45,898 nucleotides of DNA from a virus: IMG/VR virus record IMGVR_UViG_3300021599_003346, positions 1-45,898 of that record; one strand, given 5' to 3'. This document shows positions 13,834-31,691 of this stretch, piece after piece. The notes below the pieces were generated by a model. It worked only from the letters and a program-made list of their open reading frames with translations, had not been told where the DNA came from and did no database searches. How positions within the stretch are numbered: position 1 is the stretch's first letter; each line of letters starts with the position of its first letter. A program made the position numbers and the translations under genes.

Positions 13834-16357
13834 CTTTTTTACTTTCTTCTATCAATACGAGTCGATAATCCATACTTTTTTCTTTTGGGAGTTCATACCT
13901 TTTATGCCTTGGAGGAGACTTAAAGGTATAAGTCGAAAACCCATTAGATGGTGGACAAACCTGTATACTAATTAAGTTGCCTTTTTTTAATTCTGATTTA
14001 AATCTTTGGTAATCATCATCCCAAATCGTTATCCTTCCCATCTCAAAATTATCATCCATAACAGACAAGCTAGCAAAAGAGCCTTTGCCACTTTTGAACT
14101 TTTTAATATTTACTTCGAGTATCTCACAAATTACTGTTGACCATAAAACGCCTGCTTCATCTTGTAGTTTGAGATTGTTAAAGTTTTTGTTCGGCTGATA
14201 ACCTGCTGCATTTCTAATACGGTTATCCCATGGATAACCATAATATGTCTCCTGAGCCAGCCTACTATTATTTAGTAAAGGCAAAACCTTCGCATCGTCA
14301 ATTTTTACTTCCTCGCTGACGAATGTTTCCAAAGTTGGCTTAACAGGAGCCTTATCAGCAAATCGTTTAAGTGCTGCTTCAGCTTTTTTCTTAGCACCTG
14401 CTAACAATGAAATATATTGATCTTTATTTTCAAAATCCTTTCTTTCGATATAATCAGATAATATCTGTATATTTTTGGGTGTCGCAAGCTTTATGACATG
14501 CAGTTGCTCTGGCAATGCTTCCTTGATGACTTCGGCAAGTTTAGTCAAAGAGGCTTCAAATCTTTTTTGTCTATCCTTCACTATCTTTTGATAATCTGCA
14601 AATAATAACCAAAATTTATAGAGTTCAACCGGATTGTTTTCCTTGAAAACTCCTAAAGGGATCAAAGCCCTTAGAACAGTTGCCTCGGTTCCAAAACGGG
14701 AAAGAAAGTCTTCAAAGCCATCGTATGGCTGGAGTTCAACAATTCGCTTGGCTTTATCCTCACCTATACCTTTGATGTTAGAAAAACCTATGTAAATCTT
14801 ACCATCAAATATGCTAAATGTTTCCTTAGACAAATTAATATCTAATGGACAAACTTCAACCCCATGATTAATTGCCTCGGAGATATAGTCCCTTAGCTTT
14901 TCGTCATCACTTTCACATTGTAGAGTTGCTGTGTAGAATTCTAAAGGATAATGTGCTTTTAAATACAACTGCCTAGCAGAAATATATGAATAAGCTACGG
15001 AATGGCTTAGATTAAAACCGTATTCAGCGAAAGATTGTATCTGATCAAAAAGTTTTGTTACCTCTTCTTTAGTAGTTTCCAAAACAAGCTGGCCATTCTC
15101 AATAAACTTGTCTTTATATTTCCCAAACGCTTCTATTTTCTTTTTAGAAATAGCTTTTATAACGACATAACAATCACGAAGAGGAATCTTGCCTACAGCA
15201 GCAAGAATTTTCATAACATCCTCTTGGAAAATCATAATGCCATAAGTTTTACCTAAAATTGGTTCTATAACAGGATGCAATTTATATTCCTGTTTGCCAC
15301 GCTTTCTGAGTGTGTATGTCTCATCCATTCCTTGATTCAAAGGGCCGGGACGATACAGAGCTACAAGGTTAACTAAATCATCAAAGCAATCCATTCCACA
15401 TTTTCTAGCTAATTTTCTGATACCTTCAGAGTCATACTGGAAAACACATTTAAGATCACCAGCATTAGCCATTTCCATGCATTTTGCATCATTCAAGTAA
15501 GACAGATCACTCCAATCCCATTGACCTTCTAATGCAGAAATGTTTTTCAAACTGTGCCGTTGTTTTACCATCTTTACTGTTAATGCAATTTGCCAAAGAC
15601 TACTTACAACCAACAAGTCAAATTTGATCAAGCCAACTGGGCCAAGGTCTTGACCACTCAAGCCTTCAACCCACGCAGAAACAGCTTCTCCTTCGGAGCC
15701 TTTGACCAACGGCACAAATTTATCAATGGGTTGATTGCAGAGTATCAATCCACCAGCATGTTTTCCCATGCTTCTATTGCGATGTAATAATTTTTGAACT
15801 GCTGCTGCCACATCAGGATGCTTTTGACAATATGCATTCAATTCAGGATACAACTCCAAAGCTTTCTGATAAGTTAAAGCCTCCCCCTCATCATCTTTAA
15901 GTCGCAAATTTGTTGTGATTTGAAGAATTTCTGATCTGTCAAGCCCATGAACACGGGCCATATCAATAAAAGTGCTTTTGAGTCCAAAAGTACCATAGTT
16001 TCCAATATTGCATACTTTGTCTTCGCCAAAAGTTTGAGGAGCCCAAGTATTCTTCAGATAATCACGAACTATTGGCAAATAATCTACATCAACATCTGGA
16101 TATTCCCCATTTTTTGTCGATGGTTCCTCATCAAGATTTACATAATCAACAATATCAAGAAGCTTACATATTAAAAGATTGTTTTCGTTATTTGGATATT
16201 TTTTACCTTCATAAAACATTTTGATAAAATATTCTTCTAGGTCTTGAACCTCAACCTCGATTAACTCCCATTTGAGTCTTTTTTCAAAATTCTTATGAAG
16301 ACACAATTCAGGATAAAGATGCTTCCTTTCAAGAAGTAGGGATTTCAATTTTTCCAT
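13826..16357 (-). CDS. dnaE: DNA polymerase III alpha, C-terminal half (palm/fingers, HhH, OB-fold)
   Basis: The C-terminal portion of a C-family replicative polymerase on its own gene. It begins with an ~80-residue extension without DnaE similarity that I can see, then the palm with PDVDVDY (87-93, two catalytic Asp) and IKFDLL (third Asp). Fingers motifs follow (GNYGTFGLKSTFIDMARVHG; HRNRSMGKHAGGLIL; NLVALYRPGPLNQGM; FQEDVMKILAAVG; NLSHSVAYSYISARQLYLKA), then an HhH (IKGIGEDKAKRIVEL) and an OB-fold (GKGSFASLSVMDD). It has its own SD (GAGG) before ATG 16357, so it is made as a separate chain. The PHP half is at 19.3-20.6 kb. The two chains must associate for a complete active site. Confidence 0.93.
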   Translation of the reverse strand: MEKLKSLLLERKHLYPELCLHKNFEKRLKWELIEVEVQDLEEYFIKMFYEGKKYPNNENNLLICKLLDIVDYVNLDEEPSTKNGEYPDVDVDYLPIVRDYLKNTWAPQTFGEDKVCNIGNYGTFGLKSTFIDMARVHGLDRSEILQITTNLRLKDDEGEALTYQKALELYPELNAYCQKHPDVAAAVQKLLHRNRSMGKHAGGLILCNQPIDKFVPLVKGSEGEAVSAWVEGLSGQDLGPVGLIKFDLLVVSSLWQIALTVKMVKQRHSLKNISALEGQWDWSDLSYLNDAKCMEMANAGDLKCVFQYDSEGIRKLARKCGMDCFDDLVNLVALYRPGPLNQGMDETYTLRKRGKQEYKLHPVIEPILGKTYGIMIFQEDVMKILAAVGKIPLRDCYVVIKAISKKKIEAFGKYKDKFIENGQLVLETTKEEVTKLFDQIQSFAEYGFNLSHSVAYSYISARQLYLKAHYPLEFYTATLQCESDDEKLRDYISEAINHGVEVCPLDINLSKETFSIFDGKIYIGFSNIKGIGEDKAKRIVELQPYDGFEDFLSRFGTEATVLRALIPLGVFKENNPVELYKFWLLFADYQKIVKDRQKRFEASLTKLAEVIKEALPEQLHVIKLATPKNIQILSDYIERKDFENKDQYISLLAGAKKKAEAALKRFADKAPVKPTLETFVSEEVKIDDAKVLPLLNNSRLAQETYYGYPWDNRIRNAAGYQPNKNFNNLKLQDEAGVLWSTVICEILEVNIKKFKSGKGSFASLSVMDDNFEMGRITIWDDDYQRFKSELKKGNLISIQVCPPSNGFSTYTFKSPPRHKRYELPKEKSMDYRLVLIEESKKDE

Positions 16358-19294: not shown

Positions 19295-20635
19295 CTAATT
19301 TGAAAATTTTAACTTAATTTGTTTTCCACCTCTAGCCTCGCTCAAAAATCTTGAGAAAAGCAAACCATGTCGTATCGGATCAACATCGGTGACACCCAAT
19401 AAATAAAGAATCAAAGACCCACCACCAGAACCTCTTCCGGGGCCAACAGCCTCCCTTCCATCTCCCCAACCCAAAAGCTCAGGACAAACTCTTCTGGCCT
19501 CATCGGTCATCATCTTCTGGACTAGAAAGTAACTAGCAAACCCCTTTCGTGTGATTATATCAAATTCTTCCGCAACTCGTTTGCCGTATTCCCCTTGTGG
19601 CTTGATGTTTCTAAACCGCAATCCATCTGCGACAGCCTGCGCTAGAGCTTTCTTTTCTTCCTCTTGTAGTGGAAATTTTATGCTTCTGTCTAGTTCAACG
19701 CCCTTGGCTTTTTGACAAATAGCAACTGTAGTGGCCTTGGCTTCTTCAAATATTTCGAGTGGTATGACATCACTATATTTTTTTTGCCACATCTCATTAA
19801 GCTCTTCTTCTGTTTTCATCCACAAATTACTGTCTTGGAGTTCAAAAAAATCTTGATTTTCATTTTCTTCAATCATCTTTTGTATTTCTGGCAAAGTTCT
19901 TTTTGTCTGAATCATCAGCATCAATCTTTGATAATGACTATCTTCCTGTTTGCAATAATGGCAGTCGTTAGTAAGAATAATTGGAAGATTATACTTATCT
20001 TTCATTTTCAAAATGAAAACATCATATGGTTTTTGCTTTTTGAAATCCAACATCATAATTTCTAAGTAAAACTGACCTTTGAACATGTTGATATATCTTA
20101 CTAAAACTTCTTCAGCTGCTTCCTCCCCTTTTTTATCGAATGTTCTGCCTATTTCACTTGCATAACAGCAAGATGTAAAAATCAATCCTTCTTTATGTTT
20201 TTGAAGCATCTCATAGTTTACACGGGGTTTCGCATAGAAACCCTTCAGAAAACCATAAGATGATAATTGAACAAGATTGGAATAACCTTGTTTAGATGTG
20301 GCAATCGCAAGTAAGTGACTGCCTTTTACTTTGAATTCTTCAAGCTCTTCAGGACCAAGTTGGTCCATGAATTTCTTTCTACTCTCTTCATCAGGAGTAG
20401 GCTCGGAGTGCATGCGGTTGACATATAACTCACAGGCAAAAATTGCACTAAGCTTATTTTTTCCGTGTTGTTCACAAATTTGTTCACAAGCTTTTACTTG
20501 TCTGGGAACAGCACCGAGCATGCCATGATCACTTATGCAGAGAAACTGACCATGGTGGTGCCAATGCTCTGCGTATTCTTCAACTTGGCCAAATCCATCT
20601 AAAAGACTATAGTTTTTTGCGCCCCCGGCATTAAA
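19295..20635 (-). CDS. dnaE: DNA polymerase III alpha, N-terminal half (PHP + first palm), 5' end missing
   Basis: It carries the PHP domain (YSLLDGFGQVEEYAEHWHHH, LCISDHGMLGA, IILTNDCHY) and the first palm motif GPGRGSGGGSLILYLLGVTDVDPI, then LLFSRFLSEARGGKQIKLK before a TAG. It stops just before the PDxDxD motif, which is in the other gene (16357). The 5' side is abnormal. Coding similarity begins at YSLLDG (~20611), but the frame closes at 20636, and the usual LHxH strand and any start codon in front of YSLLDG are absent. The first ATG is at 20521 (M of HGMLGA), inside the PHP domain. An HNH gene and two large hairpins lie directly upstream, suggesting an intron or a mobile-element insertion. 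Confidence 0.85.
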   Translation of the reverse strand, partial: FNAGGAKNYSLLDGFGQVEEYAEHWHHHGQFLCISDHGMLGAVPRQVKACEQICEQHGKNKLSAIFACELYVNRMHSEPTPDEESRKKFMDQLGPEELEEFKVKGSHLLAIATSKQGYSNLVQLSSYGFLKGFYAKPRVNYEMLQKHKEGLIFTSCCYASEIGRTFDKKGEEAAEEVLVRYINMFKGQFYLEIMMLDFKKQKPYDVFILKMKDKYNLPIILTNDCHYCKQEDSHYQRLMLMIQTKRTLPEIQKMIEENENQDFFELQDSNLWMKTEEELNEMWQKKYSDVIPLEIFEEAKATTVAICQKAKGVELDRSIKFPLQEEEKKALAQAVADGLRFRNIKPQGEYGKRVAEEFDIITRKGFASYFLVQKMMTDEARRVCPELLGWGDGREAVGPGRGSGGGSLILYLLGVTDVDPIRHGLLFSRFLSEARGGKQIKLKFSN

Positions 20636-20697
20636 TTATGCCGGGGGCAGTATGTCTGTGTGAAGATGTAGGTGTTCAAAACCTACTATCTTCACAC
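20621..20697. other. Two strong stem-loops at the broken 5' edge of dnaE
   Basis: Hairpin A is 20621-20648: an 11-bp GC-rich stem (GCCCCCGGCAT with ATGCCGGGGGC) and a six-base loop. Hairpin B is 20658-20697: 10 bp plus 6 bp around a one-base bulge (GTGTGAAGAT and GTAGGT arms) with a seven-base loop; it covers the HNH stop codon. Neither is followed by a T-run on the minus strand, so they are not ordinary terminators. Their place between an HNH gene and an exon-like dnaE fragment suggests 3' parts of a self-splicing intron, but I could not identify a catalytic core. Confidence 0.6.
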
Positions 20698-21687
20698 TTG
20701 ACCCTTGGTTGGACATGATTTTACCTTAAAACCTTTTGATTGAAGCCAGTTTTCAAAAGCACAGGCATCATAGTTGTCATTTTTAACACAGTTCTCAACA
20801 ACTGTCAATGGCTGTAAATTTTCCAAACAATTAATTAATTTAATGTCTCTAATGCCATAGTCTAAAAATGCTTTAATAGGAAAAATATGATCAAGGTGCC
20901 ATTTTTTTCCTATTAATTTATGCCAGTTTTTGTGATTAAATATGTGTTCCCGTAGTTGCACAGCGGTATAGCCCAACAATTCTTTTGTTTTTTTGTTTTT
21001 ATTTATTTTTAAATATCTTATGCAAATGTTAATCATCGATCTGCATTTCTGTCTAAACAAATCATTAGTCCTTTTCTTTTCACGATCAGATATCCATTCA
21101 TAATGATGAGAACCACTTCTTCCTAACAAAGAACAAGCAGGACACCTAGGAACTTTTTGGAAATTATTTAAAGTTTTTTTATGATTCTGTCCGCATTTAC
21201 AAATAAATTCTACTGGCAGTCTTGCTTTTTTATATAAGCCAATTAATTTGCATCCTTGATCTTTGAAAAATTTTGCAACTTGATCTTGTGATAAAGTTTG
21301 CTTCTTTGAATTTTTTATGTTACCACATTTTTTGCATCTATTACCTTTTCTAAAACTATCAAATACTATTTTAGATTTATTGCCACACTCACAAATATAA
21401 TCTAATTTAGCTCTGGCATTTATGTAATTTTCACTTAGAAGATAACAGTTCCTATCTTCAAAAAATTTTTTGACATAGTCATATTTAAGTTTGAATTTAT
21501 TTTTTAAACAATTTTTACATCTGCCTCCTTGCATAAAATTACTTAGTTTTATATAAGAAATATTTCTGCAAACACAAATATATTTTAATTTATTTTTTGC
21601 ATTACAATACCTGTCCAATAATTTGCACCCAGCATCTTCAAAAACTTTGACAACAAAATCTTGATCATATTTTTTACCTTGCGCCAC
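20692..21687 (-). CDS. HNH homing endonuclease with repeated Cys-rich DNA-binding modules
   Basis: The C-terminal HNH nuclease is KKWHLDHIFPIKAFLDYG followed by INCLENLQPLTVVEN. Upstream are three repeats of ~60 residues, each with CxC or CxCG and a later CxxC (YICVCRN...CKNC; YICECGN...CKKC; FICKCGQ...CPAC), which look like zinc-binding DNA-recognition modules. The start is taken as GTG at 21687 with GAGG six bases upstream. This type of nuclease moves itself, often with an intron, into conserved genes; here it abuts the truncated 5' end of dnaE. The base composition is AT-rich like its surroundings. Confidence 0.88.
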   Translation of the reverse strand: MAQGKKYDQDFVVKVFEDAGCKLLDRYCNAKNKLKYICVCRNISYIKLSNFMQGGRCKNCLKNKFKLKYDYVKKFFEDRNCYLLSENYINARAKLDYICECGNKSKIVFDSFRKGNRCKKCGNIKNSKKQTLSQDQVAKFFKDQGCKLIGLYKKARLPVEFICKCGQNHKKTLNNFQKVPRCPACSLLGRSGSHHYEWISDREKKRTNDLFRQKCRSMINICIRYLKINKNKKTKELLGYTAVQLREHIFNHKNWHKLIGKKWHLDHIFPIKAFLDYGIRDIKLINCLENLQPLTVVENCVKNDNYDACAFENWLQSKGFKVKSCPTKGQV

Positions 21688-21699
21688 AACCCACCTCAA

Positions 21700-21752: not shown

Positions 21753-23363
21753 TCAACTTCTTGTCAAACCGAATTCCCTTTTATACTGTTCTCTTGTCAA
21801 TTGAATTACATTTGACCCGTCATTCTCATCGCAATAAAACATGAGTTCTTCTTGGTTTTCATCTTTGGTGACCAGAAGAACTGATTTGCCAGAAACAGCA
21901 TTTAATGATTTCAAAGTTTCATCAAGGTACGGCATATACAAAGTTCTGCCTTCCCATTGATGCTCTAAAAGCATTATGTTCCTACCAAGATGATTGTGGT
22001 CGGTCATCCTAATATCTGGTAAACCTCTGTTGGAATATCTTTGAATGAGCTTTTTCTTAATTTTCTTGGCATCCTTTGATTCAATTACTACTTCACCATT
22101 AGGATACTTTTTCCATTCAAAGAACTGATACTTTTCGCAAAAATCCTGAGTAAAGAATTCATTGATCAAATTGACATCATCATATATCTTTACAACTTCA
22201 AAAACTTTATTTTTACCCTCGCCAAGCTTCAAATCCCAGTTTTCTTTTTCTTTGAAACTAGCACAATTGTCGTAATCAGAACCAAACCTTCCTTTATCCC
22301 ATCTTTCCTCAATATCTATCAACAAATTAAACCCAAGCTTATATGGGTTCATACTGTACTTACCACCAAGAACACCAGCCTTATGAATCGAATACTCTAC
22401 AATTCCTTCATCATGACTCTTTTGACCCAAAGCACAAAGCCCTTGTTTGGCTATCAAATGGTAGTCAACATAGCTGGCAAATCCTTCATTCGCCATTTTT
22501 GTCATGCCTTGTGGAGCAAAATAGTGTGCTTCGTCATAAAGCATACTCATGATGTCTGATTGCCAAGGCTTGAGATTGCAGTTATCTTTTATCCATCCAT
22601 AAATATCTCTTTCTGGAGACCGGGGTATTCCCAAATCTTCAATTTTTTCTTCTCTTTCAATACGATACTTCTCTGACTTAATATATTCTTTTGTATTGAT
22701 CCAATCTTCCATATAATTTCTATCTTTGTCTATTTTAATCCTTTTTGGATAACGATATTTTCTTTCATCTCTAACAATAGGATTTTTTACTTGTCTAGTT
22801 TCCCAAGCTTTGGATGGATCAATCAAAGTTTCGATTCTTAATAAATTATCAATAAATTCAGTTACTTTTTCTTTCCCCCACCTTGCCATATACTTTCTGA
22901 TTCTGCTGCCATGGTTAGCTAGCTCATTAATCATATTCTGGGATGTGTGTTTGAAATAGTGGTTATTCTTGAAAAAGTGGTTGTGCCCAGTAGCATGAGC
23001 AATAACAGTAACATTATCAAGAAGGGTATTGCTATTAAGGCAATAAATGTAGCAAGGATTTGTATTGAGAACCATTTCATAAATGCGATGCATTCCATAC
23101 ATGTAACCTCGTTGCAGTTCTTCGTACTCCATACCCCAACGCCAATGGGGATATCTTACTGGAAACCCTCCATAAGCTGCAACTTCGGAAATTTCGTCAT
23201 AGGTAAGCATTTGAACCACGGTGGGATAGAAATCCAATCCGAAGTCTGTGCATGCCTTTAAAATATCTGGAATTAAAACCTTCAATTCATGTGGTATAGA
23301 AACACCGGGAGTGGTAGCACTCCCTTGCAGAATTGAAGAGCCATACATGAATTTGTCAGTCAT
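21753..23363 (-). CDS. spoVR: SpoVR family protein
   Basis: Matches the SpoVR/YcgB family over its full 536 residues: GLDFYPTVVQMLTYDEISEVAAYGGFPVRYPHWRWGMEYE, RIYEMVLNTNPCYIYCLNSN, IAHATGHNHFFKNNHYF, KPWQSDIMSMLYDEAHYFAPQ, KMANEGFASYVDYHL, and a C-terminal VTKDENQEELMFYCDENDG. The His/Glu-rich motifs suggest a metal-bound enzyme, but its activity is unproven. The start is ATG 23363, with GAGG six bases upstream. In bacteria it is linked to YeaH and PrkA in stationary phase, nitrogen starvation and spore cortex formation. Here it follows DUF444 by seven bases, the same order as in cells. Confidence 0.93.
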   Translation of the reverse strand: MTDKFMYGSSILQGSATTPGVSIPHELKVLIPDILKACTDFGLDFYPTVVQMLTYDEISEVAAYGGFPVRYPHWRWGMEYEELQRGYMYGMHRIYEMVLNTNPCYIYCLNSNTLLDNVTVIAHATGHNHFFKNNHYFKHTSQNMINELANHGSRIRKYMARWGKEKVTEFIDNLLRIETLIDPSKAWETRQVKNPIVRDERKYRYPKRIKIDKDRNYMEDWINTKEYIKSEKYRIEREEKIEDLGIPRSPERDIYGWIKDNCNLKPWQSDIMSMLYDEAHYFAPQGMTKMANEGFASYVDYHLIAKQGLCALGQKSHDEGIVEYSIHKAGVLGGKYSMNPYKLGFNLLIDIEERWDKGRFGSDYDNCASFKEKENWDLKLGEGKNKVFEVVKIYDDVNLINEFFTQDFCEKYQFFEWKKYPNGEVVIESKDAKKIKKKLIQRYSNRGLPDIRMTDHNHLGRNIMLLEHQWEGRTLYMPYLDETLKSLNAVSGKSVLLVTKDENQEELMFYCDENDGSNVIQLTREQYKREFGLTRS

Positions 23364-23370
23364 CGCAACC

Positions 23371-24552
23371 TCAAGATATCTTTGTTTTACCAAGCAAGTC
23401 TTTAATAGCTTTTAAAACGGCCTCGTTTCTTGCCTCACCACTTAGGTTGGAGGAAGAATTTTCTATTTCAGCCGTCTTTATATTTTCACCAAGTGTATCA
23501 TCCTCTTTAGCATCTCTGACTGCCTCCAAAACTGATCCACGATAGTCGTATGCAAAAATCTGCGTAATTCCAACAAAATTGACGACTTTTTCAGGGAATT
23601 CTTTTTTCAAAGTCTGAATAAAAACTTCGTTGTCATTTATTTGATTTTCACCATCGGTAAAGTAAAACACATAAATATTCCATTTATTTGGCGGGAACCT
23701 ATTTTCAAATTGTTTGGCAATTAATTTTAGTGAGGAACTGCAAACTGTTCCACCACCAAATCTATATTTGTAAAATTTTTGTTCGTCAACTTCTTGTGCT
23801 TGTGTATCGTGCCATACAAACATTCTTTCAACACGCTTATAAAATCTCTTTATCCATACATCAATCCACCAAGCCATATCTGAAACTATTTCGCATTTTG
23901 CAGTATCCATGCTGGCGCTTCCATCTCTTGCATAAATTATCAATGCATTAGTAGATGGGTTTTTGATCTCTTTGTATTGTCTATACCTCTTGTCACTATT
24001 AATTGGCAGAATCAAACGAACTGGGTCTTTATACCCCGGCACTTGATGCAACTGATTGATTTCCCCCGTGCTACACATTCTTTTCAACGCAGTAAGCATG
24101 GTTCTTCTAGTATGCCTAAGCGACTCTGGGCCAACTAAAGAAATATTATTGTATTTAATTTTTATATCTTCAAAAGTATTATCTTCTTTCGGATTTAAAT
24201 CAGGAAGTTCCAATTCATCTTGTAAGAATTTAAGAATTTCTTCCAAATCTAAACTGATTGTGATGCCTTCTGCCTCTTCCGAGCCAGCTTTATTACCTTT
24301 GCCTTTTCCCTTTGGATCATCTCTTCCGATAACATCTCCCGGCTTTCCATCTCCTCGTCCAACACCTGTGCCGTTGTTACCGAAAACAATATGTGGAATG
24401 TCAATTTTTGGAATGGAAATTGAAATTTTCCCATTCTTCCCTCTGCTTCTAAAAATATTTCCCGATTTTATAAATTTTTTAAGCTCCTTACGAATTTTAC
24501 CAGAAACAACATCTCGAAATTCTTTATGGTCTTCATTTATTCTACGAGGAAT
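23371..24552 (-). CDS. yeaH: DUF444 / YeaH family protein, no canonical start codon
   Basis: The C-terminal vWA-like domain has a MIDAS-type motif ARDGSASM, then TDGENQINDNEVFIQ. The N-terminal part, before the first TTG at 24246, is clearly coding and YeaH-like: RRINEDHKEF, FIKSGNIFRSRGKNGKISISIP, a Gly/Lys-rich linker and the ELELPDLNP region. The frame is closed by TGA at 24558-24556 and contains no ATG/GTG/TTG before 24246. An AUU at 24552 is well placed behind AGGTGA (six bases from AGG), giving 393 residues. E. coli YeaH starts M-T-W-F-I-D-R-R-L-N, so a frameshift near a GTG-ACT-TAT start is the alternative. The protein partners PrkA and SpoVR in cells. Confidence 0.88.
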   Translation of the reverse strand: MPRRINEDHKEFRDVVSGKIRKELKKFIKSGNIFRSRGKNGKISISIPKIDIPHIVFGNNGTGVGRGDGKPGDVIGRDDPKGKGKGNKAGSEEAEGITISLDLEEILKFLQDELELPDLNPKEDNTFEDIKIKYNNISLVGPESLRHTRRTMLTALKRMCSTGEINQLHQVPGYKDPVRLILPINSDKRYRQYKEIKNPSTNALIIYARDGSASMDTAKCEIVSDMAWWIDVWIKRFYKRVERMFVWHDTQAQEVDEQKFYKYRFGGGTVCSSSLKLIAKQFENRFPPNKWNIYVFYFTDGENQINDNEVFIQTLKKEFPEKVVNFVGITQIFAYDYRGSVLEAVRDAKEDDTLGENIKTAEIENSSSNLSGEARNEAVLKAIKDLLGKTKIS

Positions 24553-24579
24553 AAGTCACCTCTCTTTCAGTTTCCTTTA

Positions 24580-24609
24580 AGTATACTTCTATGCAACCAT
24601 GTTTTGCAA
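24580..24609 (-). promoter_or_regulatory. Sigma-70-like promoter before the yeaH-spoVR unit
   Basis: On the minus strand TTGCAA and TATACT are separated by 18 bases, close to the TTGACA-17-TATAAT consensus. The site lies after the terminator at 24635-24672 and about 30 bases before the proposed yeaH start. This suggests the pair is transcribed by host-type RNA polymerase, separately from the upstream prkA unit. Confidence 0.5.
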
Positions 24610-24634
24610 ATTAATTTTCATCAAAATATATACG

Positions 24635-24672
24635 AAAAAACCAGAACCATTAGACAAATCTAACGGTTCTGG
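24635..24672 (-). terminator. Intrinsic terminator
   Basis: A 14-bp stem with one mismatch (arms CCAGAACCGTTAGA and TCTAATGGTTCTGG on the minus strand) and a TTTG loop is followed by TTTTTTCG. It ends the prkA-to-oxygenase run, whose last gene stops at 24692. Confidence 0.85.
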
Positions 24673-24691
24673 CTCTGTCCTAAAAATGCAC

Positions 24692-25504
24692 TCATTGAAC
24701 AATATTAAAAAAGAAAAGCTGAACCAATCTGGCCTTACTTGCATCTTCGACAGATAAGCCCTCATAAGTGCTGGCAGAATGTATCAGCTTTGCATCCCAA
24801 ATTGCTAACCTATTATAAACAGCGCCGACCTTATCACATAGCTCCCAATTATCTGGATGTACAAAATTATATTGATTGTATATTTCTGAATCTGCTTTTT
24901 GAATCGCTTCTTGGTTGGCAAACTTGTGCGACTCTAGTGGATTAGCTGGAGGTCTACGGCATCCATGTTTCTTGCTTTTCCAGAAACTTGTGCCAGCAGT
25001 TATAGGGGCATCAGGTGTTAAGTATATTGCAGCTGCATAGTTTTGAGCATCACTATGGTATACCAAGGGGTCTTGAAAACCTGTGATTTGGAAACAGCCA
25101 TTAGCAATCTGGAACAGCCAGCCCTCAATTTGTGTACCCAGAAGTCTTTCAAACTCTTCCTTTAAATAAGGCCACAAAAACCTTTCTGTGGTCCTTTTAC
25201 CCTTATACCAACGAAGGTCTTCGTGAAACTCTTGTTCAAGAGCCATCCCTCTAATATCATCAGGATTTTTGTAAAAATTGTCAACTACAAGCAAATGTGG
25301 ATTTCTTTTGTTGAAAATATTATGATTTACCGAAAATGAACTAGAAAAATTTAAATCTTTTTCCAAGACCCACATAGGAAGATCGACATCTACTGGCCTG
25401 ACATAATACTTAGGCAAACCATCTAGGCCTTGGCCAATCTTTTCAACTGTACAATCTTGTTTAGAAAACCGTACTTTTTGGCCTACAGAAAATTTAGGAT
25501 TCAT
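24692..25504 (-). CDS. 2OG-Fe(II) oxygenase-like (DUF6445-type) protein with KOW/SH3-like N-terminus
   Basis: The N-terminal ~50 residues look like a small beta barrel (FSVGQKVRFSKQDCTVEKIG, then LPKYYVRPVD). The main domain contains LLVVDNFYKNPDDIRGMAL, YHSDAQNYAAAIYLTPDAPI with an HxD-type motif, GTSFWKSKKHG, and YNRLAIWDAKLIHSAS with the distal His. This set is typical of a 2OG-oxygenase-related family found in cyanophages and other aquatic phages. The reaction is unknown. It is the last gene of the prkA unit before the terminator. Confidence 0.72.
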   Translation of the reverse strand: MNPKFSVGQKVRFSKQDCTVEKIGQGLDGLPKYYVRPVDVDLPMWVLEKDLNFSSSFSVNHNIFNKRNPHLLVVDNFYKNPDDIRGMALEQEFHEDLRWYKGKRTTERFLWPYLKEEFERLLGTQIEGWLFQIANGCFQITGFQDPLVYHSDAQNYAAAIYLTPDAPITAGTSFWKSKKHGCRRPPANPLESHKFANQEAIQKADSEIYNQYNFVHPDNWELCDKVGAVYNRLAIWDAKLIHSASTYEGLSVEDASKARLVQLFFFNIVQ

Positions 25505-25523
25505 TATTTTTACCCTTTCGCTT

Positions 25524-25877
25524 CTAATTTGAATTAAATTCTAAAATTATGACAGAATCAACAACTATGACTTGCTTTCCAAGAATATTAGTTATTTGAC
25601 CAACTACTTTTACTGCTTTTTCTTGTTTTTCTGCTCGATCTAGCAAAACTTTTTGTTGTGGATTTGTAACAATTAACTGATGTTTATACATGACGGCATT
25701 CGGAAATTTTCCGACTGGCATATGACTAAGTGTTAAAATGTTCTTGTCATATTCAACATAGCCAGAAAAAGTTTTAGTTGGATAATTTTCTGAATCGAAT
25801 TGACTAAAAATATCAAGTGGGCGTTTTTGTAAATCTGCTGTATTAATAAAACAGGTCAGCAACAAAAACGCCCACAT
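25524..25877 (-). CDS. Exported small protein (117 aa) with signal peptide
   Basis: A short hydrophobic N-terminus (MWAFLLLTCFINTADLQK) resembles a signal peptide. The mature part is beta-rich and ends VVGQITNILGKQVIVVDSVI, reminiscent of a small OB-type barrel. No family is firmly recognised. It lies five bases downstream of the 75-residue gene and is in the prkA run, so export or a lipid-facing role during the same stress response is possible. Confidence 0.55.
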   Translation of the reverse strand: MWAFLLLTCFINTADLQKRPLDIFSQFDSENYPTKTFSGYVEYDKNILTLSHMPVGKFPNAVMYKHQLIVTNPQQKVLLDRAEKQEKAVKVVGQITNILGKQVIVVDSVIILEFNSN

Positions 25878-25882
25878 TTTGA

Positions 25883-26110
25883 TTACTCTCCAGAGTTAAA
25901 AGACAGATCAAAGCCTTTATCTGTCTCAAGCGGGGATGAGAACTTCATGTTCAAGAAAAAGTCTCGTAGCTCGTTGGGCAGGCTATTGATTAGCTCACCC
26001 AAGGTTGCATCAGAGGCCCATCCGTTCATGATATGCTCATCGAGGTCTTCAAGCAACTGCCTAGATTTGGCAGAATTCAACCAAGGATTCTTCAAATTAG
26101 CTGCACTCAT
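25883..26110 (-). CDS. Small acidic protein next to prkA (75 aa)
   Basis: No family recognised. It is helical (SRQLLEDLDEHIMNGWASDA, LINSLPNELRDFFLNMKF), acidic and soluble. It starts 10 bases after prkA stops, in the same operon, and could be a small partner of the kinase. An SD (GGAG) precedes the ATG. Confidence 0.55.
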   Translation of the reverse strand: MSAANLKNPWLNSAKSRQLLEDLDEHIMNGWASDATLGELINSLPNELRDFFLNMKFSSPLETDKGFDLSFNSGE

Positions 26111-26119
26111 GTTTGCTCC

Positions 26120-28189
26120 TTATTCTTCTGCTAAGTCACCACGGGCAAATATGGACCCAACATAATCTAGAACATCCCTTGCGGATTGTTCGTTGTATCC
26201 ATATTCTTTCATCCTCTCAATTATAGCATCAATCTTTTCCTGAATCTTCGGATCAACAACAGAACTTCCAGAAACATGCAAAGCAGATAACTTAATATGA
26301 TCTTTAGTATCTTCAAACAACTTCATCTCGAAAGCTTTTTTCAGTAAAGGAGAAGAGTCCCAAGCAAAAGTTTTCTTCTTGTGGCTCAATTCACCGATGA
26401 AAGCAGCAATCATTCTTCTGAAATCATCGACTGCGTTTTCAGCAACATCAATTTTTGTTTCAATGTTACGCATCAGTCGCTCATCAGGCTGCTCCTCACG
26501 GCCAGTATATGGATTCTTTACTTTAGACTTGTTGATATAAGCCATCAAGTTGTCTATATAGTTTGAACAAAGTCTAACAACTGCTTCCTCATCACCCACA
26601 AGTGCTTTTTGAACCTCCGCTTTCAGAATCTCATCAAGCTTATTCTTGGCCAAAGTAATACAGTTAGTATACTGTTTAATCTGGTCTTTGTTTGTAATCA
26701 AACTATGGTTTTCAAGACCATCCATCAAACTGTTAAGAACCATGAATGGGTTAATGTAATCATGCCTATCAGAAAGGCAATTAGCAATTTTATCTTGCAC
26801 ATACCTTGCGCTAACGCCACCAGCCATACCTTCATCTGGATACTTATCTCTTAGCTCTTTGACAGAGTCTTCGGTCCAGCCGGGGAGCATCTTATCATTG
26901 TATAGCTCGGCTTTTTCTACAAGACTTAGCTTACCGTCCTTATCGTCTTGAAGTCGAGTAAGAATTGCCCACAGCGCAGCAACCTCCAAAGTATGAGGTG
27001 CTACATGCTGACGAACTTTGCCGTTTGAGTAGTCTTGTTCTAAAACTTTAATTTCGTCATCCCACTTCAATAAATATGGGACATCAATCTTAACAGTTCT
27101 GTCTCGCAAAGCTTCCATAAATGGATTGTTTTTGAGTTTTTCAAATTCAGGTTGATTAGTATGGCCAAGAATTGCCATATCAACTCTAATCTGCGAAAAC
27201 TTTTTGGGTTTGATTTGTCTTTCTTGCGATGCACCCAAAAGGTCATATAGGAAAGCTTGCTCTAATTTGAGCATTTCAATAAATTCAACAACGCCACGGT
27301 TACCAACGCATAACTCTCCATCAAAGCTGAAAGCTCTGGGATCGGAGTCGCTTCCAAAATGTGGGATTTTTGCGAAGTTAATGTCACCAGTCAGTTCAGT
27401 TGAATCTTGATTCTTTTCATCTTTCGGCTGGAAAGTAGCAATTCCCACTCTATCACTTTCGGAATGTGTCAAGCGAATCACACGAATGTGATTAGTAACG
27501 ACTTTAAGCCAATCACCATCATACTTCTTTAAAAGCCTTTGCATGAATAGCTTGCACCTTGGGTCAAGCTCTCCATCGACATTCAAAGAATACAAAGTAG
27601 CCAAATCTTTTTGGTCTGCTTGATCTCTGTGTATTTTGTTGAGATCAGCTAGCACCTCTTGTCGCATATCCTCTGGCATCAAGCGCAAAGGCTCTTCATG
27701 CATAGGGCAGCAGTCAGTATCGGAAGTGTAAATACCATCTTGTCCAGTTGGTAAATTGACCCACTTGAAAGAATACCAAGCTCCCTCATTTGTACGACTA
27801 TATTTTTCTAACCCTTTTTTAAGCAATCTGCAAATGGTACTCTTGGATGAACCAACAGGACCATGTAGCAAGAGAATTCTTTTTTCTGTACCGTAAAACC
27901 CAGCAGCACCTTTAATATGTTTCATAAAACGGTCTAGAGTTTCCTCCAAACCAAAAATAGGAATATCCAGATCGTCAAAAAAGTTGTAATGTGTAAGTAT
28001 GTTGCGATATCTTTCGACTTCTCTGGTGCCTTTTGCGACAACCATATCATAAAGTCTTTGATATGCAGTTCTTATCAGCTTGGGATTTTCATAACACTTT
28101 TCGAGATACTCTTGAAAAGACATCTCTTCATTGATTGCTGCATATTCTGTTTTGTTAAATTTTTGTGCTACTTGTTCGAGTTTGCTCAT
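26120..28189 (-). CDS. prkA: PrkA family serine/threonine protein kinase (YeaG)
   Basis: A full-length PrkA (689 residues; cellular proteins ~630-690). The AAA+-like domain includes the Walker A GPVGSSKST (110-118), the LPEDMRQEVLADL-type segment seen here as MPEDMRQEVLADLN, RGVVEFIEMLKLEQAFLYDLL and GHTNQPEFEKLKNNPFMEALRDR. The C-terminal region (FMVLNSLMDGLENH, DVLDYVGSIFA) corresponds to the kinase part. In bacteria PrkA phosphorylates or degrades targets during sporulation, starvation or acid stress and acts with YeaH and SpoVR. The gene is preceded by a zinc-ribbon gene (25-base gap) and followed by small genes. All visible motifs are intact. Confidence 0.95.
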   Translation of the reverse strand: MSKLEQVAQKFNKTEYAAINEEMSFQEYLEKCYENPKLIRTAYQRLYDMVVAKGTREVERYRNILTHYNFFDDLDIPIFGLEETLDRFMKHIKGAAGFYGTEKRILLLHGPVGSSKSTICRLLKKGLEKYSRTNEGAWYSFKWVNLPTGQDGIYTSDTDCCPMHEEPLRLMPEDMRQEVLADLNKIHRDQADQKDLATLYSLNVDGELDPRCKLFMQRLLKKYDGDWLKVVTNHIRVIRLTHSESDRVGIATFQPKDEKNQDSTELTGDINFAKIPHFGSDSDPRAFSFDGELCVGNRGVVEFIEMLKLEQAFLYDLLGASQERQIKPKKFSQIRVDMAILGHTNQPEFEKLKNNPFMEALRDRTVKIDVPYLLKWDDEIKVLEQDYSNGKVRQHVAPHTLEVAALWAILTRLQDDKDGKLSLVEKAELYNDKMLPGWTEDSVKELRDKYPDEGMAGGVSARYVQDKIANCLSDRHDYINPFMVLNSLMDGLENHSLITNKDQIKQYTNCITLAKNKLDEILKAEVQKALVGDEEAVVRLCSNYIDNLMAYINKSKVKNPYTGREEQPDERLMRNIETKIDVAENAVDDFRRMIAAFIGELSHKKKTFAWDSSPLLKKAFEMKLFEDTKDHIKLSALHVSGSSVVDPKIQEKIDAIIERMKEYGYNEQSARDVLDYVGSIFARGDLAEE

Positions 28190-28213: not shown

Positions 28214-28543
28214 TTACTCAACTTCTCCAAAGAACTGACCACTTTGAATGTCATCAATCTCACGATATGGTTGGCCACCCACATGTGACGCTTCCTCCGC
28301 TTTACGGCGAAGGTCTTGCGCTTGTTCTAAATTATATCCAGCACGATAACCAAAGTTATCAAATTTACTTGTATCTTTCGGATTAGTAAATTTTATGTTG
28401 GAAATGAAAGTCACTTGTTGCTTCTTCCTCTTTGACCCACAGGATGGGCAAACAACATCTTTATATTTTCCAGAAGAATCAAAGTTTGTCAATGAGTCGT
28501 ATTCTTTTTTACATTTCAAACAGGCAAAACTATATGTTGGCAT
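28214..28543 (-). CDS. FmdB-like zinc-ribbon protein (109 aa)
   Basis: It starts MPTYSFACLKCKKEYDSL and has CPSCGSKRKKQQV, a two-CxxC zinc ribbon of the FmdB/CxxC regulatory type. The remaining ~60 residues are hydrophilic (NLEQAQDLRRKAEEASHVGG). FmdB-like proteins are thought to be regulators, but the role is weakly known. It is first in the prkA operon, right after the terminator at 28553-28586. Confidence 0.72.
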   Translation of the reverse strand: MPTYSFACLKCKKEYDSLTNFDSSGKYKDVVCPSCGSKRKKQQVTFISNIKFTNPKDTSKFDNFGYRAGYNLEQAQDLRRKAEEASHVGGQPYREIDDIQSGQFFGEVE

Positions 28544-28616: not shown

Positions 28617-28892
28617 TTAAAACAATTCGTTTACCATTTTTTTCAGATTCGAATAAATTTTCTTAATGATTGTCAGTTTGTTTTTCGTAGTACGAAACGA
28701 CCATAGCCAATCTTTACTAGCAACAGATATTGCATCATGTAAAATTTTCTCATCAACATCGCTTCTGAGAATATCTGTCTGCTCTTGCTGTGCCATGATT
28801 ATTTGATCCTCTATAGGCATGTCCTTTTTCTTTTTCTTGCCAGAATCATCATCAAAACTATCATCAAAAGGAAAATCAAATCTATTTCCCAT
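28617..28892 (-). CDS. Hypothetical protein (91 aa)
   Basis: No family recognised. The N-terminus is Asp/Phe-rich (MGNRFDFPFDDSFDDD) with a short Lys run, followed by a helical basic half (TTKNKLTIIKKIYSNLKKMV). A strong SD (GGGAGG) precedes the ATG, and a late-type TAATAAATA sequence lies about 90 bases upstream on the same strand. The region 28893-29041 holds no convincing gene. Confidence 0.6.
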   Translation of the reverse strand: MGNRFDFPFDDSFDDDSGKKKKKDMPIEDQIIMAQQEQTDILRSDVDEKILHDAISVASKDWLWSFRTTKNKLTIIKKIYSNLKKMVNELF

Positions 28893-29433: not shown

Positions 29434-29832
29434 TTAAGAATTCCCTTCACTTTTTGCATCTGTTTCTTTATTTACTAACCAATTAGCAAAATCTAATTTT
29501 TTGGATGGCAACGCTATCTTGGTTTTTAATCCAAAGTATCCACGAATTATTTTTGCGACTTGTTTTTGTCCCATAGGTGTCTTAGGGTCTTCGATAACAT
29601 CATCTAAATCCTTGATTAGCGTGACATCATAAGGCATTGCACATGGGTTTTTGCTTCCGGGTAAGGCTGCTTTGACAGCATCGAGTCCTATCAAACCGCA
29701 GTCTCTATAGCCTATATCGTGAGTTTTACATGCTGCATCCACAGGGTTGATTGGGGACTTGGCAAATCCCTTCTCATCATATGGTCCGGGACCACAGAAG
29801 TTGCCGTAACGCATAGTTGAAAAATTAAACAT
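29434..29832 (-). CDS. Phospholipase A2-like protein (132 aa)
   Basis: Residues ~9-44 show the secretory-PLA2 pattern: a Ca-binding loop YGNFCGPGP and the catalytic region DAACKTHDIGYRDCG with the His-Asp pair. This is close to the viral PLA2 layout (GPG... D..C..HD..Y). There is no signal peptide. The C-terminus carries KKLDFANWLVNKET, similar to the N-terminal peptide of its neighbours but at the other end. A PLA2 in a virion could open host membranes during entry or lysis; this is inference. It starts 27 bases from the divergent gene at 29860 with TATA-like boxes between. Confidence 0.68.
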   Translation of the reverse strand: MFNFSTMRYGNFCGPGPYDEKGFAKSPINPVDAACKTHDIGYRDCGLIGLDAVKAALPGSKNPCAMPYDVTLIKDLDDVIEDPKTPMGQKQVAKIIRGYFGLKTKIALPSKKLDFANWLVNKETDAKSEGNS

Positions 29833-29859: not shown

Positions 29860-30426
29860 ATGTTAAACTTTAGAGAATGGGTTTCCTACCATAAAATACT
29901 AAATGAAAATTATATTATTGAAGACACAGAAGTAGTATCATTGCCTCCCAAGGTTTTATGGATCACAGGCATGGCAAGCACAGGTGATGGACCAAAATTT
30001 CTCAACAACATGGGCTACGACTGTAAAGCGATAAGCACCCTCACAAGTAGAAAAGCTGCGTACATAGGAAGATTTGAGCGCTATGCTTGGGCAAAAATGT
30101 TCTTGCAAAAAAAGGCCGAAAAACTTGGCAAGGCTCATATGGCTGCAAATGTTGAAAAACACAATAAAGAAATTGACGAATTTGAACCGGATGTAATTGT
30201 TGGAACTAGCCAAGGCGGTGCTGTGGTTATGGAAATTATTGATCAGCATCCAACATCACACCTCCATCAAAACCTATACCTGCTGAGATTTTATCTTGGT
30301 GATGATGTTTGTTGTAGACATGTTGCCATAAGTTGGCGCAAAACGAACTTCTTTGCAAAACTCTCTGCCTATGACAACTTTATTCTCATATTCTGCACCT
30401 TTTACTATTACATCCGGTTCTATTGA
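29860..30426 (+). CDS. Alpha/beta-hydrolase-like protein, probably 3'-truncated, with capsid-targeting-like N-terminus
   Basis: It begins MLNFREWVSYHKILNENYII, again the shared peptide, followed by a hydrolase core: LPPKVLWITGMASTGDGPKF and the nucleophile elbow DVIVGTSQGGAVVMEII (GxSxGG). From about residue 138 the frame runs antisense through the 3' end of the hldE gene (153-base overlap), and that segment (LYLLRFYLGDDVCCRH...FCTFYYYIRFY) looks non-native. The acid/His part of a catalytic triad is not visible. A deletion or recombination joined it to hldE, or it is a shortened binding protein. Confidence 0.6.
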   Translation: MLNFREWVSYHKILNENYIIEDTEVVSLPPKVLWITGMASTGDGPKFLNNMGYDCKAISTLTSRKAAYIGRFERYAWAKMFLQKKAEKLGKAHMAANVEKHNKEIDEFEPDVIVGTSQGGAVVMEIIDQHPTSHLHQNLYLLRFYLGDDVCCRHVAISWRKTNFFAKLSAYDNFILIFCTFYYYIRFY

Positions 30427-31647
30427 TTTTATTATTTCAATTGGTGTTTCGTCATCAAACACAATAATATAATCAACAAATTCCAAATTTTCTAGCAAAG
30501 CCAACCTGTCTGCCAACTGCATAATCGGTCTGTTTTCCCCTTTTATCTTTCTAACACTTTCATCAGAATTTATAGCAACACAAAGTTTATCTCCCTGCTG
30601 AGAGGCATATTTCAAACTCGATAGATGGCCCCCGTGCAACAAATCAAAACATCCATTCGTGAAAGCTAATTTGAAATTGCGATTGAACAAAACATCAGGA
30701 CATGTGACAATTTTACTACCTGTAGCTTGCCACAACTCCGCTGGGCTCAACGGTCTATTCAATTCTCTTTTAACATAAATAGCACCAGCTTCGAAGGCTA
30801 TCTCGCAAGCATCTTTCATGCTAAAGCCTCTAGCTAATGCCATAGATAGAAAACAACAAAAACAATCTCCAGCGCCTATAACACTTTTTGGATCAGAAAA
30901 AGAATTTTTCGATCTATATTCAAAATAATCAGCCTCTTTGCCAACTACACCTTGTCCACCTTGTGTAATTACAACTGAATCACATCGGAGAGAATTCATA
31001 AAATAATCAATTTGATCATGCCAATTCTTTCTATCGCTTAACTGTTTTGCTTCAATAGAATTCGGTTTGAAAACTGTACAATCTTGCCATAAGTCAATGT
31101 TGCTGTTTTTTGGATCAACAACAGATTTTGATTTTTTAAAAAATTTTCTAAACCAAGGATAAGAAAACATTCCTTTGTTGTAATCAGAAAAAACATTCAA
31201 GTCGCTATCTGGAATGTTCAAATCAAGCAAGTGCTTTTTAATATCATCTAATCCAAAATTTTCTTTTTCAAAATCCCACCGGCAAATTGGAATGTTTTGC
31301 GAATACAATCTCTTTTTGCTTGGTATAGAAATGCTTCCGACAACTTTGCTATAATTTGTTTTTATGCCCCTAGAATCATAAATTATTTGTGCCAAATTAG
31401 AAAGCAAACAAATCAATTCAAAATTCACATTGAAATACTTAAACTGAAACGCAACATTTGCTGCCCCTCCCGGTATCATTCCAGATATGGGACTTTCATC
31501 AACGCTTTTATAGACAGGAATTGGAAACTCTGGACTAATTCTGTTTACAGCGACATCGTAGTACTCATCAATTAACGGATCACCGATAACATTAATAGTT
31601 ATCTTACTTTTAGCATCGTGTTCTAGAAATTTTTTGATGATGTTCAT
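30274..31647 (-). CDS. hldE: HldE-type bifunctional heptose-7-phosphate kinase / heptose-1-phosphate adenylyltransferase
   Basis: The N-terminal PfkB-type kinase domain (to ~315) has INVIGDPLIDEYY, IPGGAANVAF and the catalytic GAGDCF (258-263). The C-terminal nucleotidyltransferase has FTNGCFDLLHGGHL (HxGH, 329-342) and KIKGENRPIMQLADRLALLE. HldE makes ADP-D-glycero-beta-manno-heptose precursor for LPS core or surface sugars. The start is ATG 31647, since longer frames run into a terminator. It has no visible SD. Two heptosyltransferase-like genes at 9.5-11.8 kb could use the product. The kinase half is diverged, so activity is not assured. Confidence 0.9.
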   Translation of the reverse strand: MNIIKKFLEHDAKSKITINVIGDPLIDEYYDVAVNRISPEFPIPVYKSVDESPISGMIPGGAANVAFQFKYFNVNFELICLLSNLAQIIYDSRGIKTNYSKVVGSISIPSKKRLYSQNIPICRWDFEKENFGLDDIKKHLLDLNIPDSDLNVFSDYNKGMFSYPWFRKFFKKSKSVVDPKNSNIDLWQDCTVFKPNSIEAKQLSDRKNWHDQIDYFMNSLRCDSVVITQGGQGVVGKEADYFEYRSKNSFSDPKSVIGAGDCFCCFLSMALARGFSMKDACEIAFEAGAIYVKRELNRPLSPAELWQATGSKIVTCPDVLFNRNFKLAFTNGCFDLLHGGHLSSLKYASQQGDKLCVAINSDESVRKIKGENRPIMQLADRLALLENLEFVDYIIVFDDETPIEIIKSIEPDVIVKGAEYENKVVIGREFCKEVRFAPTYGNMSTTNIITKIKSQQV

Positions 31648-31653
31648 ATAATT

Positions 31654-31691
31654 AAAAAAAGTGTGGCCTACAAAAATTATAGGCCACACTT
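31654..31691 (-). terminator. Intrinsic terminator upstream of hldE
   Basis: A 12-bp stem (AAGTGTGGCCTA with TAGGCCACACTT) and a nine-base loop have the T-run on the minus strand. No minus-strand gene is evident between it and 31843, so it either ends a short untranslated RNA or insulates hldE. Confidence 0.75.

Follow-up and report, generated by a model that had tools for sequence, protein, structure and literature searches.

A PrkA-YeaH-SpoVR gene set is a probable core module of a group of huge phages and may encode one ATPase-driven machine

The prkA-yeaH-spoVR locus in a virus record

We analyzed the prkA-yeaH-spoVR locus of virus record IMGVR_UViG_3300021599_003346, the whole of which is a DNA stretch of 45,898 bases (hereafter termed the window). 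PrkA, YeaH and SpoVR are the products of widespread stress genes, the biochemistry of which is disputed. That a phage can carry this trio is already known, while its scale and conservation across a group of huge phages are new. The three genes of the window are the following.

26120..28189, minus strand: PrkA, an AAA+ ATPase with a PrkA C-terminal domain, 689 amino acids (Pfam PF08298, 1.3e-81; PF06798, 1.8e-71)
23371..24552, minus strand: YeaH/DUF444, a vWA protein with a complete metal ion-dependent adhesion site (MIDAS), 393 amino acids, probable ATT start (Pfam PF04285, 1.7e-61)
21753..23363, minus strand: SpoVR, 536 amino acids, intein-free, with a predicted fold that may be zincin-like (Pfam PF04293, 4.1e-101)

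An earlier, sequence-only reading of the window had described three full-length homologues in the bacterial order, and the Pfam profiles bore this out, with prkA, yeaH and spoVR following one another on the minus strand. Neither frameshifts nor internal stops were found in the three reading frames. Both Pfam domains of PrkA scored above the cut-off and covered nearly the whole profile length, YeaH matched the DUF444 profile with 209 bits (cut-off, 27), and SpoVR matched its profile with 339 bits over columns 6-405 of 407. The same reading was also right about the key motifs, as Walker A (GPVGSxKST; 17 rows), the His and Glu residues of SpoVR (36 rows) and the MIDAS of YeaH were all invariant in the viral alignments. 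The three proteins missed the NCBIfam equivalog cut-offs of their E. coli/Bacillus counterparts (PrkA, 211.9 of 576 bits with NF011999; YhbH, 209 of 468; SpoVR, 148 of 679). Thus, we regard them as members of the respective families rather than plain orthologues.

The gap between yeaH and spoVR is 7 bases. In the list of open reading frames (ORFs), YeaH appears as a protein of 291 amino acids starting with TTG at 24246, and the frame stays open for 102 codons further upstream. The N-terminal extension encoded upstream of the TTG is conserved in a 37-row alignment, which rules out a truncated YeaH starting at this codon. The start homologous to those of the relatives is ATT at 24552-24550, preceded by the ribosome site gagaggtga; ATG occupies the corresponding position in 30 of 49 cluster representatives (see below for the clusters). 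The apparent start is ATT in four of the 49 representatives and ATC in one, these five being the window, L046, L062, L067 and L077. ATT and ATC start codons are discriminated against by the initiation factor IF3, and a phage IF3 is encoded in the window and in 12 of the 18 records of relatives examined. It is possible, judging from these codons, that the non-ATG start places YeaH under IF3-sensitive translation control; the comparison of relatives did not demonstrate a linkage between the ATT or ATC start and the phage IF3.

Viral origin of the window

The 45,898-base record is probably a fragment of a larger phage genome. Its phage-type genes encode a UvsX-like recombinase, a branch-migration helicase, a DNA polymerase III (Pol III) alpha subunit of a phage family and ThyX, and it further contains a head-closure-like match and genes for a phage single-strand binding protein, a deoxynucleoside monophosphate kinase and IF3. 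The longest IMG/VR contigs with a PrkA 100% identical to that of the window are 145 kb in length. A megablast search with half of the window against phages yielded no match. The sequence-only reading had left room for a bacterial chromosome. The window is viral, being a whole virus record with phage hallmark genes, and bacterial chromosomal or contaminating DNA is excluded by these genes together with the co-location of the trio and a terminase match in relatives, which share one contig in G003, G004 and G005 of IMG/VR and in the huge-phage record LR756511.

Conservation of the trio among huge phages

When IMG/VR was scanned with PrkA, 131 relatives were obtained, and the best 80 were kept; these fell into 52 clusters at 95% PrkA identity. 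In each of the 65 loci that extend 5 kb or more beyond the downstream end of prkA, yeaH and then spoVR come next on the prkA strand. Five of the 80 loci did not contain both partners, and all five end within 2 kb of prkA. The ratio of nonsynonymous to synonymous substitution rates (dN/dS) ranged from 0.003 to 0.079 in the pairs of relatives for which dS was computable, pointing to purifying selection; note that the nearest pair of the window (L015) and several others were synonymously saturated, and that the range stems from other pairs, some of which had dS >1. The inactive fragments that the sequence-only reading had considered for the relatives are therefore not what the relatives contain. 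Likewise, the explanation that the trio is a set of passenger or decaying genes, or bacterial contamination, is scarcely credible. We found no point in its support, and it conflicts with the intact trio of the 65 relatives with enough flank, the strong purifying selection, the phage hallmark genes around the trio and the terminase match on the same contig in the four genomes named above.

The group was also sampled independently of PrkA. Four terminases of trio-bearing genomes were aligned, and the best 80 of at least 445 relatives were kept. Among the 12 longest contigs picked in this way (131-459 kb), four possessed all three genes, eight possessed none, and no contig possessed one or two; one of the four positive contigs, G005, was also a source of a terminase query. 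The 390 kb contig 3300036766_002289 lacks the trio, and its number-neighbour from the same sample, 3300036766_002288, has it.

Phylogeny of PrkA, YeaH and SpoVR

The trees of PrkA, YeaH and SpoVR were made with one in two of the cluster representatives and bacterial loci (76, 63 and 49 rows), with the bacterial PrkA relatives being the best 80 of at least 547, and were built by a quick method with a midpoint root and Shimodaira-Hasegawa-like approximate likelihood ratio test (SH-aLRT) support without bootstrap. The SpoVR tree and the 82-row SpoVR alignment used below omit the huge-phage ORFs of at least 570 amino acids (mostly intein-bearing) and LR756504, while bacterial SpoVR ORFs of at least 700 amino acids were omitted from the alignment and kept in the tree.

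The huge-phage rows were found on one side of a branch in each of the three trees, with an SH-aLRT of 98 for PrkA (28 rows), 99 for YeaH (26 rows) and 99 for SpoVR (20 rows). The support on the bacterial side was 61 for PrkA and 88 for SpoVR, and the bacteria require two changes in the YeaH tree. The Thermus-phage rows formed their own group with long branches, the placement of which is unsure. The single viral clade for which the sequence-only reading had proposed to look was thus recovered in part: the huge-phage rows group together for each gene, and the Thermus phages and the phages with a YeaG-type PrkA stand apart. Because the Thermus group is separate and the PrkAs of LR745206, LR756502 and LR756504 are of the YeaG type, the trees indicate that phages acquired the trio more than once.

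Among the matches listed, the nearest bacterial PrkAs shared 51-56% identity with that of the window and were of Myxococcota, Chloroflexota, Planctomycetota, Calditrichota, Bdellovibrionota and others. Of the 63 bacterial loci that extend 4 kb or more downstream, 44 had the order prkA, yeaH, spoVR. The viral group, the gene order and the selection are shown by these data, and we take the trio to be a core, vertically kept module of the huge-phage group. We infer, as to both direction and age, that the trio was taken long ago from bacteria possessing this type of PrkA.

PrkA as an ATPase or a kinase

The Walker A lysine of PrkA, K116, was invariant in all of the 76 rows. The window PrkA matched the PDB entry 9xip, 'Serine protein kinase', with 709 bits, and the 30 chains of 9xip, 9xiq and 9xir, which bear this name, are its close relatives. 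Where E. coli YeaG has the lysine of its proposed kinase site, K426, there is Asp in the window, in 27 of 28 huge-phage rows and in all 40 bacterial rows of the subfamily; note that this position was mapped via the YeaG of Enterobacter phage LAU1, and that the alignment bridges proteins only ~25% identical. Asp at this position weakens, as far as the alignment reaches, the idea of phosphorylation signalling by the subfamily.

In E. coli, the strains lacking yeaG, yeaH or both behave alike, and complementation fails with the AAA+ mutant K116A of YeaG, with R232A and also with the kinase-site mutant K426A (PMC4664914). For one bacterial PrkA that had been purified, kinase activity was absent and protease activity negligible, and an earlier report cited in the same source assigned protease activity to B. 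subtilis PrkA (PMC13001217). Published work on the activity of PrkA thus disagrees.

These data bear on the explanation that the phage proteins mimic a host state, i.e., that they join or replace the PrkA, YeaH and SpoVR of the host and, through kinase signalling or titration of host partners, keep the infected cell either in a starvation state or outside it. For the bacterial relatives, roles in nitrogen starvation, osmotic stress and sporulation are described (PMC4664914, PMC13001217), the phage retains the gene order seen in the 44 bacterial loci, and the AAA+ and kinase-site mutants of E. coli both fail to complement. However, the PrkA subfamily of the window misses the kinase lysine of YeaG, the purified PrkA had no kinase activity and negligible protease activity, as opposed to the earlier B. 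subtilis report, and the retention of the set across the phage group exceeds what casual capture of host genes would give. We consider mimicry of a host state on the unlikely side, and prefer the reading in which PrkA would serve as the ATPase of one machine with YeaH and SpoVR.

Folds and sites of YeaH and SpoVR

The AlphaFold2 model of YeaH, with a predicted local distance difference test (pLDDT) score of 73, matched vWA domains (Foldseek, 6.8e-8; Z 15.5). The residues D210, S212, S214, T269 and D300, which correspond to the MIDAS set DxSxS...T...D, were all invariant in the 37 rows. By model and alignment, YeaH belongs to the vWA proteins, and its MIDAS is complete. When the PDB was searched by sequence, no homologue of YeaH or SpoVR was found at E <= 1.

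The AlphaFold2 model of SpoVR (pLDDT, 80.7) contains much helix. Its first VIA-align match was 3o0y, a lipoprotein for which no function is stated (Z 11.2), followed in ranks 2-12 by metallopeptidases with Z of 9.5-7.3, including LTA4H (9.5), an M32 carboxypeptidase (9.0), ACE (7.6) and M61 (7.3). These metallopeptidases are gluzincins of the types M1, M32, M2 and M61. Four residues of SpoVR, H122, H126, E292 and E95 (numbering starts with the codon that follows the ATG at 23363), were invariant in 82 of the 82 sequences, which represented huge phages, bacteria, Thermus phages and one YeaG-type phage. Position 123, the slot of the catalytic Glu in HExxH, was Ala in 37 sequences and Val in 45 but never Glu, and ~165 residues separate the two motifs of HxxxH...E. 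The model and the alignment suggest that the two His and the Glu form a metal site devoid of a peptidase base.

Inteins in SpoVR

Inteins favour the functional cores of proteins. One or two inteins were present in the SpoVR of 14 of the 49 clusters in which SpoVR was readable, while the SpoVR of the window contains none. Site A lies between N99 and T100, 4 residues from E95 (nine clusters), and site B lies between A295 and S296 in the motif NEGxA-S, 3 residues from E292 (nine clusters). For three clusters, the state of site A was left undecided as the search pattern missed the empty site, and their ORFs are of normal length. Empty and filled alleles coexist in three clusters, one of which, that of L040-L044 and L048, shows zero, one and two inteins. 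The three intein-bearing genes tested all matched LAGLIDADG_3 and Intein_splicing of Pfam, the latter below the cut-off in L086. The SpoVR of LR756504, which is of the YeaG type, bears a short intein-like insert two residues off, between NEG and C, with no Pfam intein match.

Bacteria have inteins at site B (between NEGWA and S) as well: of 53 bacterial loci in which SpoVR is present, four of Chloroflexota and one of Planctomycetota carry them (L101, L106, L111, L113 and L127). The intein of L111 shares 42-44% identity with most of the phage SpoVR inteins. A Chloroflexus SpoVR intein is listed in InBase. As placed in the alignments, both intein sites flank the proposed active-site residues of SpoVR.

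A proposed machine and the points that weigh against it

MoxR-type AAA+/vWA pairs, such as RavA-ViaA, CbbQ-CbbO and NorQ-NorD, tie an AAA+ protein to a vWA protein with a MIDAS, often beside a metalloenzyme client. As an AAA+ protein and a MIDAS-bearing vWA protein beside a metalloprotein repeat this make-up, we propose that the core module of the huge phages, bacterial in origin, encodes one machine, in which PrkA and YeaH would be an AAA+/MIDAS motor acting on SpoVR. We assign to this proposal a probability of roughly 0.4. In its favour are the joint inheritance of the genes (65 of 65 loci, and all or none in the 12 contigs picked by terminase), the single huge-phage group in each tree, the purifying selection, the invariant Walker lysine and MIDAS, the vWA fold of YeaH, the metallopeptidase matches and invariant residues of SpoVR, the inteins close to E95 and E292, and, in E. 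coli, the like behaviour of the yeaG and yeaH strains and the failure of K116A. PrkA would be the AAA+ ring ATPase, and YeaH the MIDAS partner that docks PrkA onto its client through a metal-bridged contact. SpoVR would be this client, with its zincin-like metal site of His, His and Glu lacking the peptidase base, and ATP hydrolysis would load, fold or switch it, as the MoxR/vWA pairs suggest. Active SpoVR might then act on a cell component, with peptidoglycan or the envelope and RNA as candidates, and a long infection might proceed in a starved or slow host; this last step is the weakest. We infer complex formation and the metal as well as the target during infection.

A bolder version, which we hold to be doubtful, would make SpoVR an unrecognised metal enzyme of the zincin fold with a chemistry other than that of peptidases. 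PrkA and YeaH would activate this enzyme, the huge phages would keep the machine as a core function of infection, and the inteins of both phages and bacteria would have homed into its active site.

Several observations weigh against the proposed machine. As for the fold of SpoVR, Foldseek found nothing significant with the model (best E, 0.39), VIA-align warns that Z below ~13 in mostly helical models may reflect a common arrangement, and B. subtilis SpoVR crosslinks to RNA (PMC12456014), which a zincin fold does not predict. As for PrkA, the failure of K426A in E. coli means that the C-terminal domain matters there, and the position of R232 is Arg in only nine of 28 huge-phage rows and Ala in the window, so that the ATPase cycle may differ. 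The three genes are not always found together, either. One or both partners were absent from the vicinity in 17 of the 63 bacterial loci with 4 kb downstream, Enterobacter phage LAU1 possesses PrkA and YeaH with no SpoVR match in its record, and Bacillus phage CM1 matched YeaH alone. Finally, eight of the 12 contigs picked by terminase lacked the trio; these contigs are classed as linear and may be fragments, and thus the absence of the trio from the phage genomes is not established.

In the phage group, the trio is kept without the remainder of the bacterial stress programme, an indication that these three suffice to form a functional unit. The phage trio offers separate versions of the proteins for testing, and exact residues for mutation are marked by the metal site predicted in SpoVR together with its adjacent inteins. 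If the proposal is true, a family known mainly by phenotype would gain a molecular function, and a cell-maintenance machine would belong to the core of giant phages.

Transcription and neighbouring genes

The counts of neighbours below refer to the 91 loci in hand at the time, and the features around the trio in the window are the following.

24641..24672, minus strand: predicted intrinsic terminator between the 270-amino-acid gene and yeaH, a 14-pair stem followed by a U-run (-20.9 kcal/mol, z -8.04)
24692..25504, minus strand: ORF of 270 amino acids, DUF6445/phrog_1644-like, a lineage-specific insert (Pfam, 2e-12; PHROG, 2.2e-28; 4 of 91 loci)
25524..25877, minus strand: ORF of 117 amino acids, a lineage-specific insert (5 of 91 loci, four being the near-identical contigs of the window)
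25883..26110, minus strand: ORF of 75 amino acids, an optional companion (26 of 91 loci)
28214..28543, minus strand: zinc-ribbon protein of 109 amino acids, a conserved upstream neighbour (Pfam Zn_ribbon_8, 1.1e-8; 78 of 91 loci)
28617..28892, minus strand: ORF of 91 amino acids, a conserved upstream neighbour (77 of 91 loci; family in 42 of 52 cluster representatives)
29434..29832, minus strand: phospholipase-A2-like small protein upstream of the trio, membership not established (Phospholip_A2_4, 5.6e-6, above the cut-off)

The sequence-only reading had divided the locus into two transcription units and placed a sigma-70-like promoter before yeaH. The predicted terminator separates yeaH and spoVR from the prkA side, and two units are therefore plausible, by sequence, in the lineage of the window. 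The promoter fared less well, as the search for such sites gave 29 against 29.0 expected, with no excess over chance. The terminator is absent from the sites of the consensus scan. In the window, three genes and the terminator stand between prkA and yeaH, while in many relatives yeaH directly follows prkA, e.g., in L040-L044 and L048, the open frames of which are 7 bases apart. The small and exported companions, which had been counted as part of the set, are not fixed members of it, as the ORFs of 117, 270 and 75 amino acids occur in so few of the loci (5, 4 and 26 of 91, respectively). The first two are ruled out as parts of the system, being nearly restricted to the near-identical contigs of the window.

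Pol III alpha is split into two genes in the window, 19295-20521 and 13826-16357, which are 2.9 kb apart and match adjoining columns of phrog_405 (96-439 and 441-1054). The split point is identical in L013, L015, L023, L052 and L055. Inspection of the end of the N part by eye revealed no intein signature, and an Rfam scan found no intron at the split gene and no RNA element at gathering thresholds; a single-sequence scan with the N part gave seven loci only and was left unused. A gene for an HNH-endonuclease-like protein lies between spoVR and the polymerase (20692-21699), with relatives in 16 of the 91 loci, and the window also encodes an amidoligase-like protein (42241-43170; PHROG, 4.4e-10). 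The HldE-like heptose kinase/adenylyltransferase at 30274-31689 scored 240 bits, under the equivalog cut-off; 44 of the 52 clusters have its family upstream of prkA, and the gene may hint at a Gram-negative host with lipopolysaccharide. Downstream of spoVR, 21 of 52 clusters carry a family with a ClpP-like member (L069 14993-15913, the sole one tested), and 8 of the 13 records examined contain a Clp protease match at some place.

The surroundings of the trio also bear on a role in the virion, in which the motor would help head building or packing. In the Thermus phages, the trio of Lalka8 has portal/minor head genes on one side and TerL on the other, and the prkA of phiYS40 is 1.2 kb from TerL. 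On the other hand, the stretches fetched for MN1 and phiLo contain no annotated packaging gene, and those neighbours in the window to which a function can be assigned belong to replication and metabolism. As the trio and the terminase match of LR756511 lie ~190 kb apart, we rank this improbable explanation as a rival only. A module for defence or superinfection exclusion is a still poorer candidate. AAA+ and vWA pairs do occur in defence systems, but none of the three proteins matched a PADLOC model at E <= 0.01, and the zinc-ribbon neighbour gave one weak match, to PDC-M14A (E 0.0011).

Comparison with known systems

The sequence-only reading knew of no described phage with all three genes, which proved wrong: phiYS40, MN1, Lalka8 and phiLo carry the trio. 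The genome paper of phiYS40 dates from 2006, and its record annotates SpoVR and a 'serine kinase' besides a DUF444 gene. A published table lists SpoVR and PrkA for the jumbo phage RsoM2USA (PMC8504454), which was not among our PrkA-search matches and is known here from that table alone. In addition, spoVR has been reported to outnumber every other sporulation gene among viruses from a marine oxygen minimum zone (PMC8940887). In the limited library searched, we found no report of the trio as a huge-phage core, of inteins in phage SpoVR or of a zincin-like SpoVR, and no paper combining SpoVR and inteins.

As in the window, the trio was detected by profile in the four Thermus-phage stretches examined (those of phiYS40, MN1, Lalka8 and phiLo), and only PrkA and YeaH matches were seen for TMA, YS40_Isch and Lalka27a/27b. 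The Thermus phages differ from the window in sharing only 30-33% PrkA identity, in the order yeaH-spoVR-prkA and in occupying their own branch of unsure place; their trio adjoins packaging genes in two of the four stretches (phiYS40 and Lalka8). The nearest named record is LR756511.1, an uncultured huge phage of 595 kb, of which PrkA, YeaH and SpoVR are 69, 57 and 59% identical to those of the window and encoded in the same order. It shares the 91-amino-acid and zinc-ribbon neighbours, but no match to the 117-amino-acid, 270-amino-acid and HNH genes was found in a 32 kb stretch, and its Pol III alpha is undivided. LR745206, LR756502 and LR756504 also encode the trio, but with a PrkA of the YeaG type. 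The PrkA of LR745206 shares 64% identity with the YeaG of Enterobacter phage LAU1 and 84 and 65% with those of LR756502 and LR756504, respectively, and spoVR of LR756502 lies ~244 kb from prkA. Judged by these identities, the YeaG-type phage PrkA is a separate acquisition.

The MoxR-type pairs resemble PrkA and YeaH in their make-up, and PrkA belongs to a different AAA+ family. SpoVR, the predicted fold of which may be that of gluzincin metallopeptidases, shares HxxxH...E with them, but lacks the catalytic Glu of HExxH. The bacterial operon (yeaG-yeaH and ycgB in E. coli; prkA, yhbH and spoVR in B. subtilis) comprises the same three families as the window, whereas the proteins of the window belong to a separate viral group, score far below the equivalog cut-offs and include a PrkA without the kinase lysine of YeaG.

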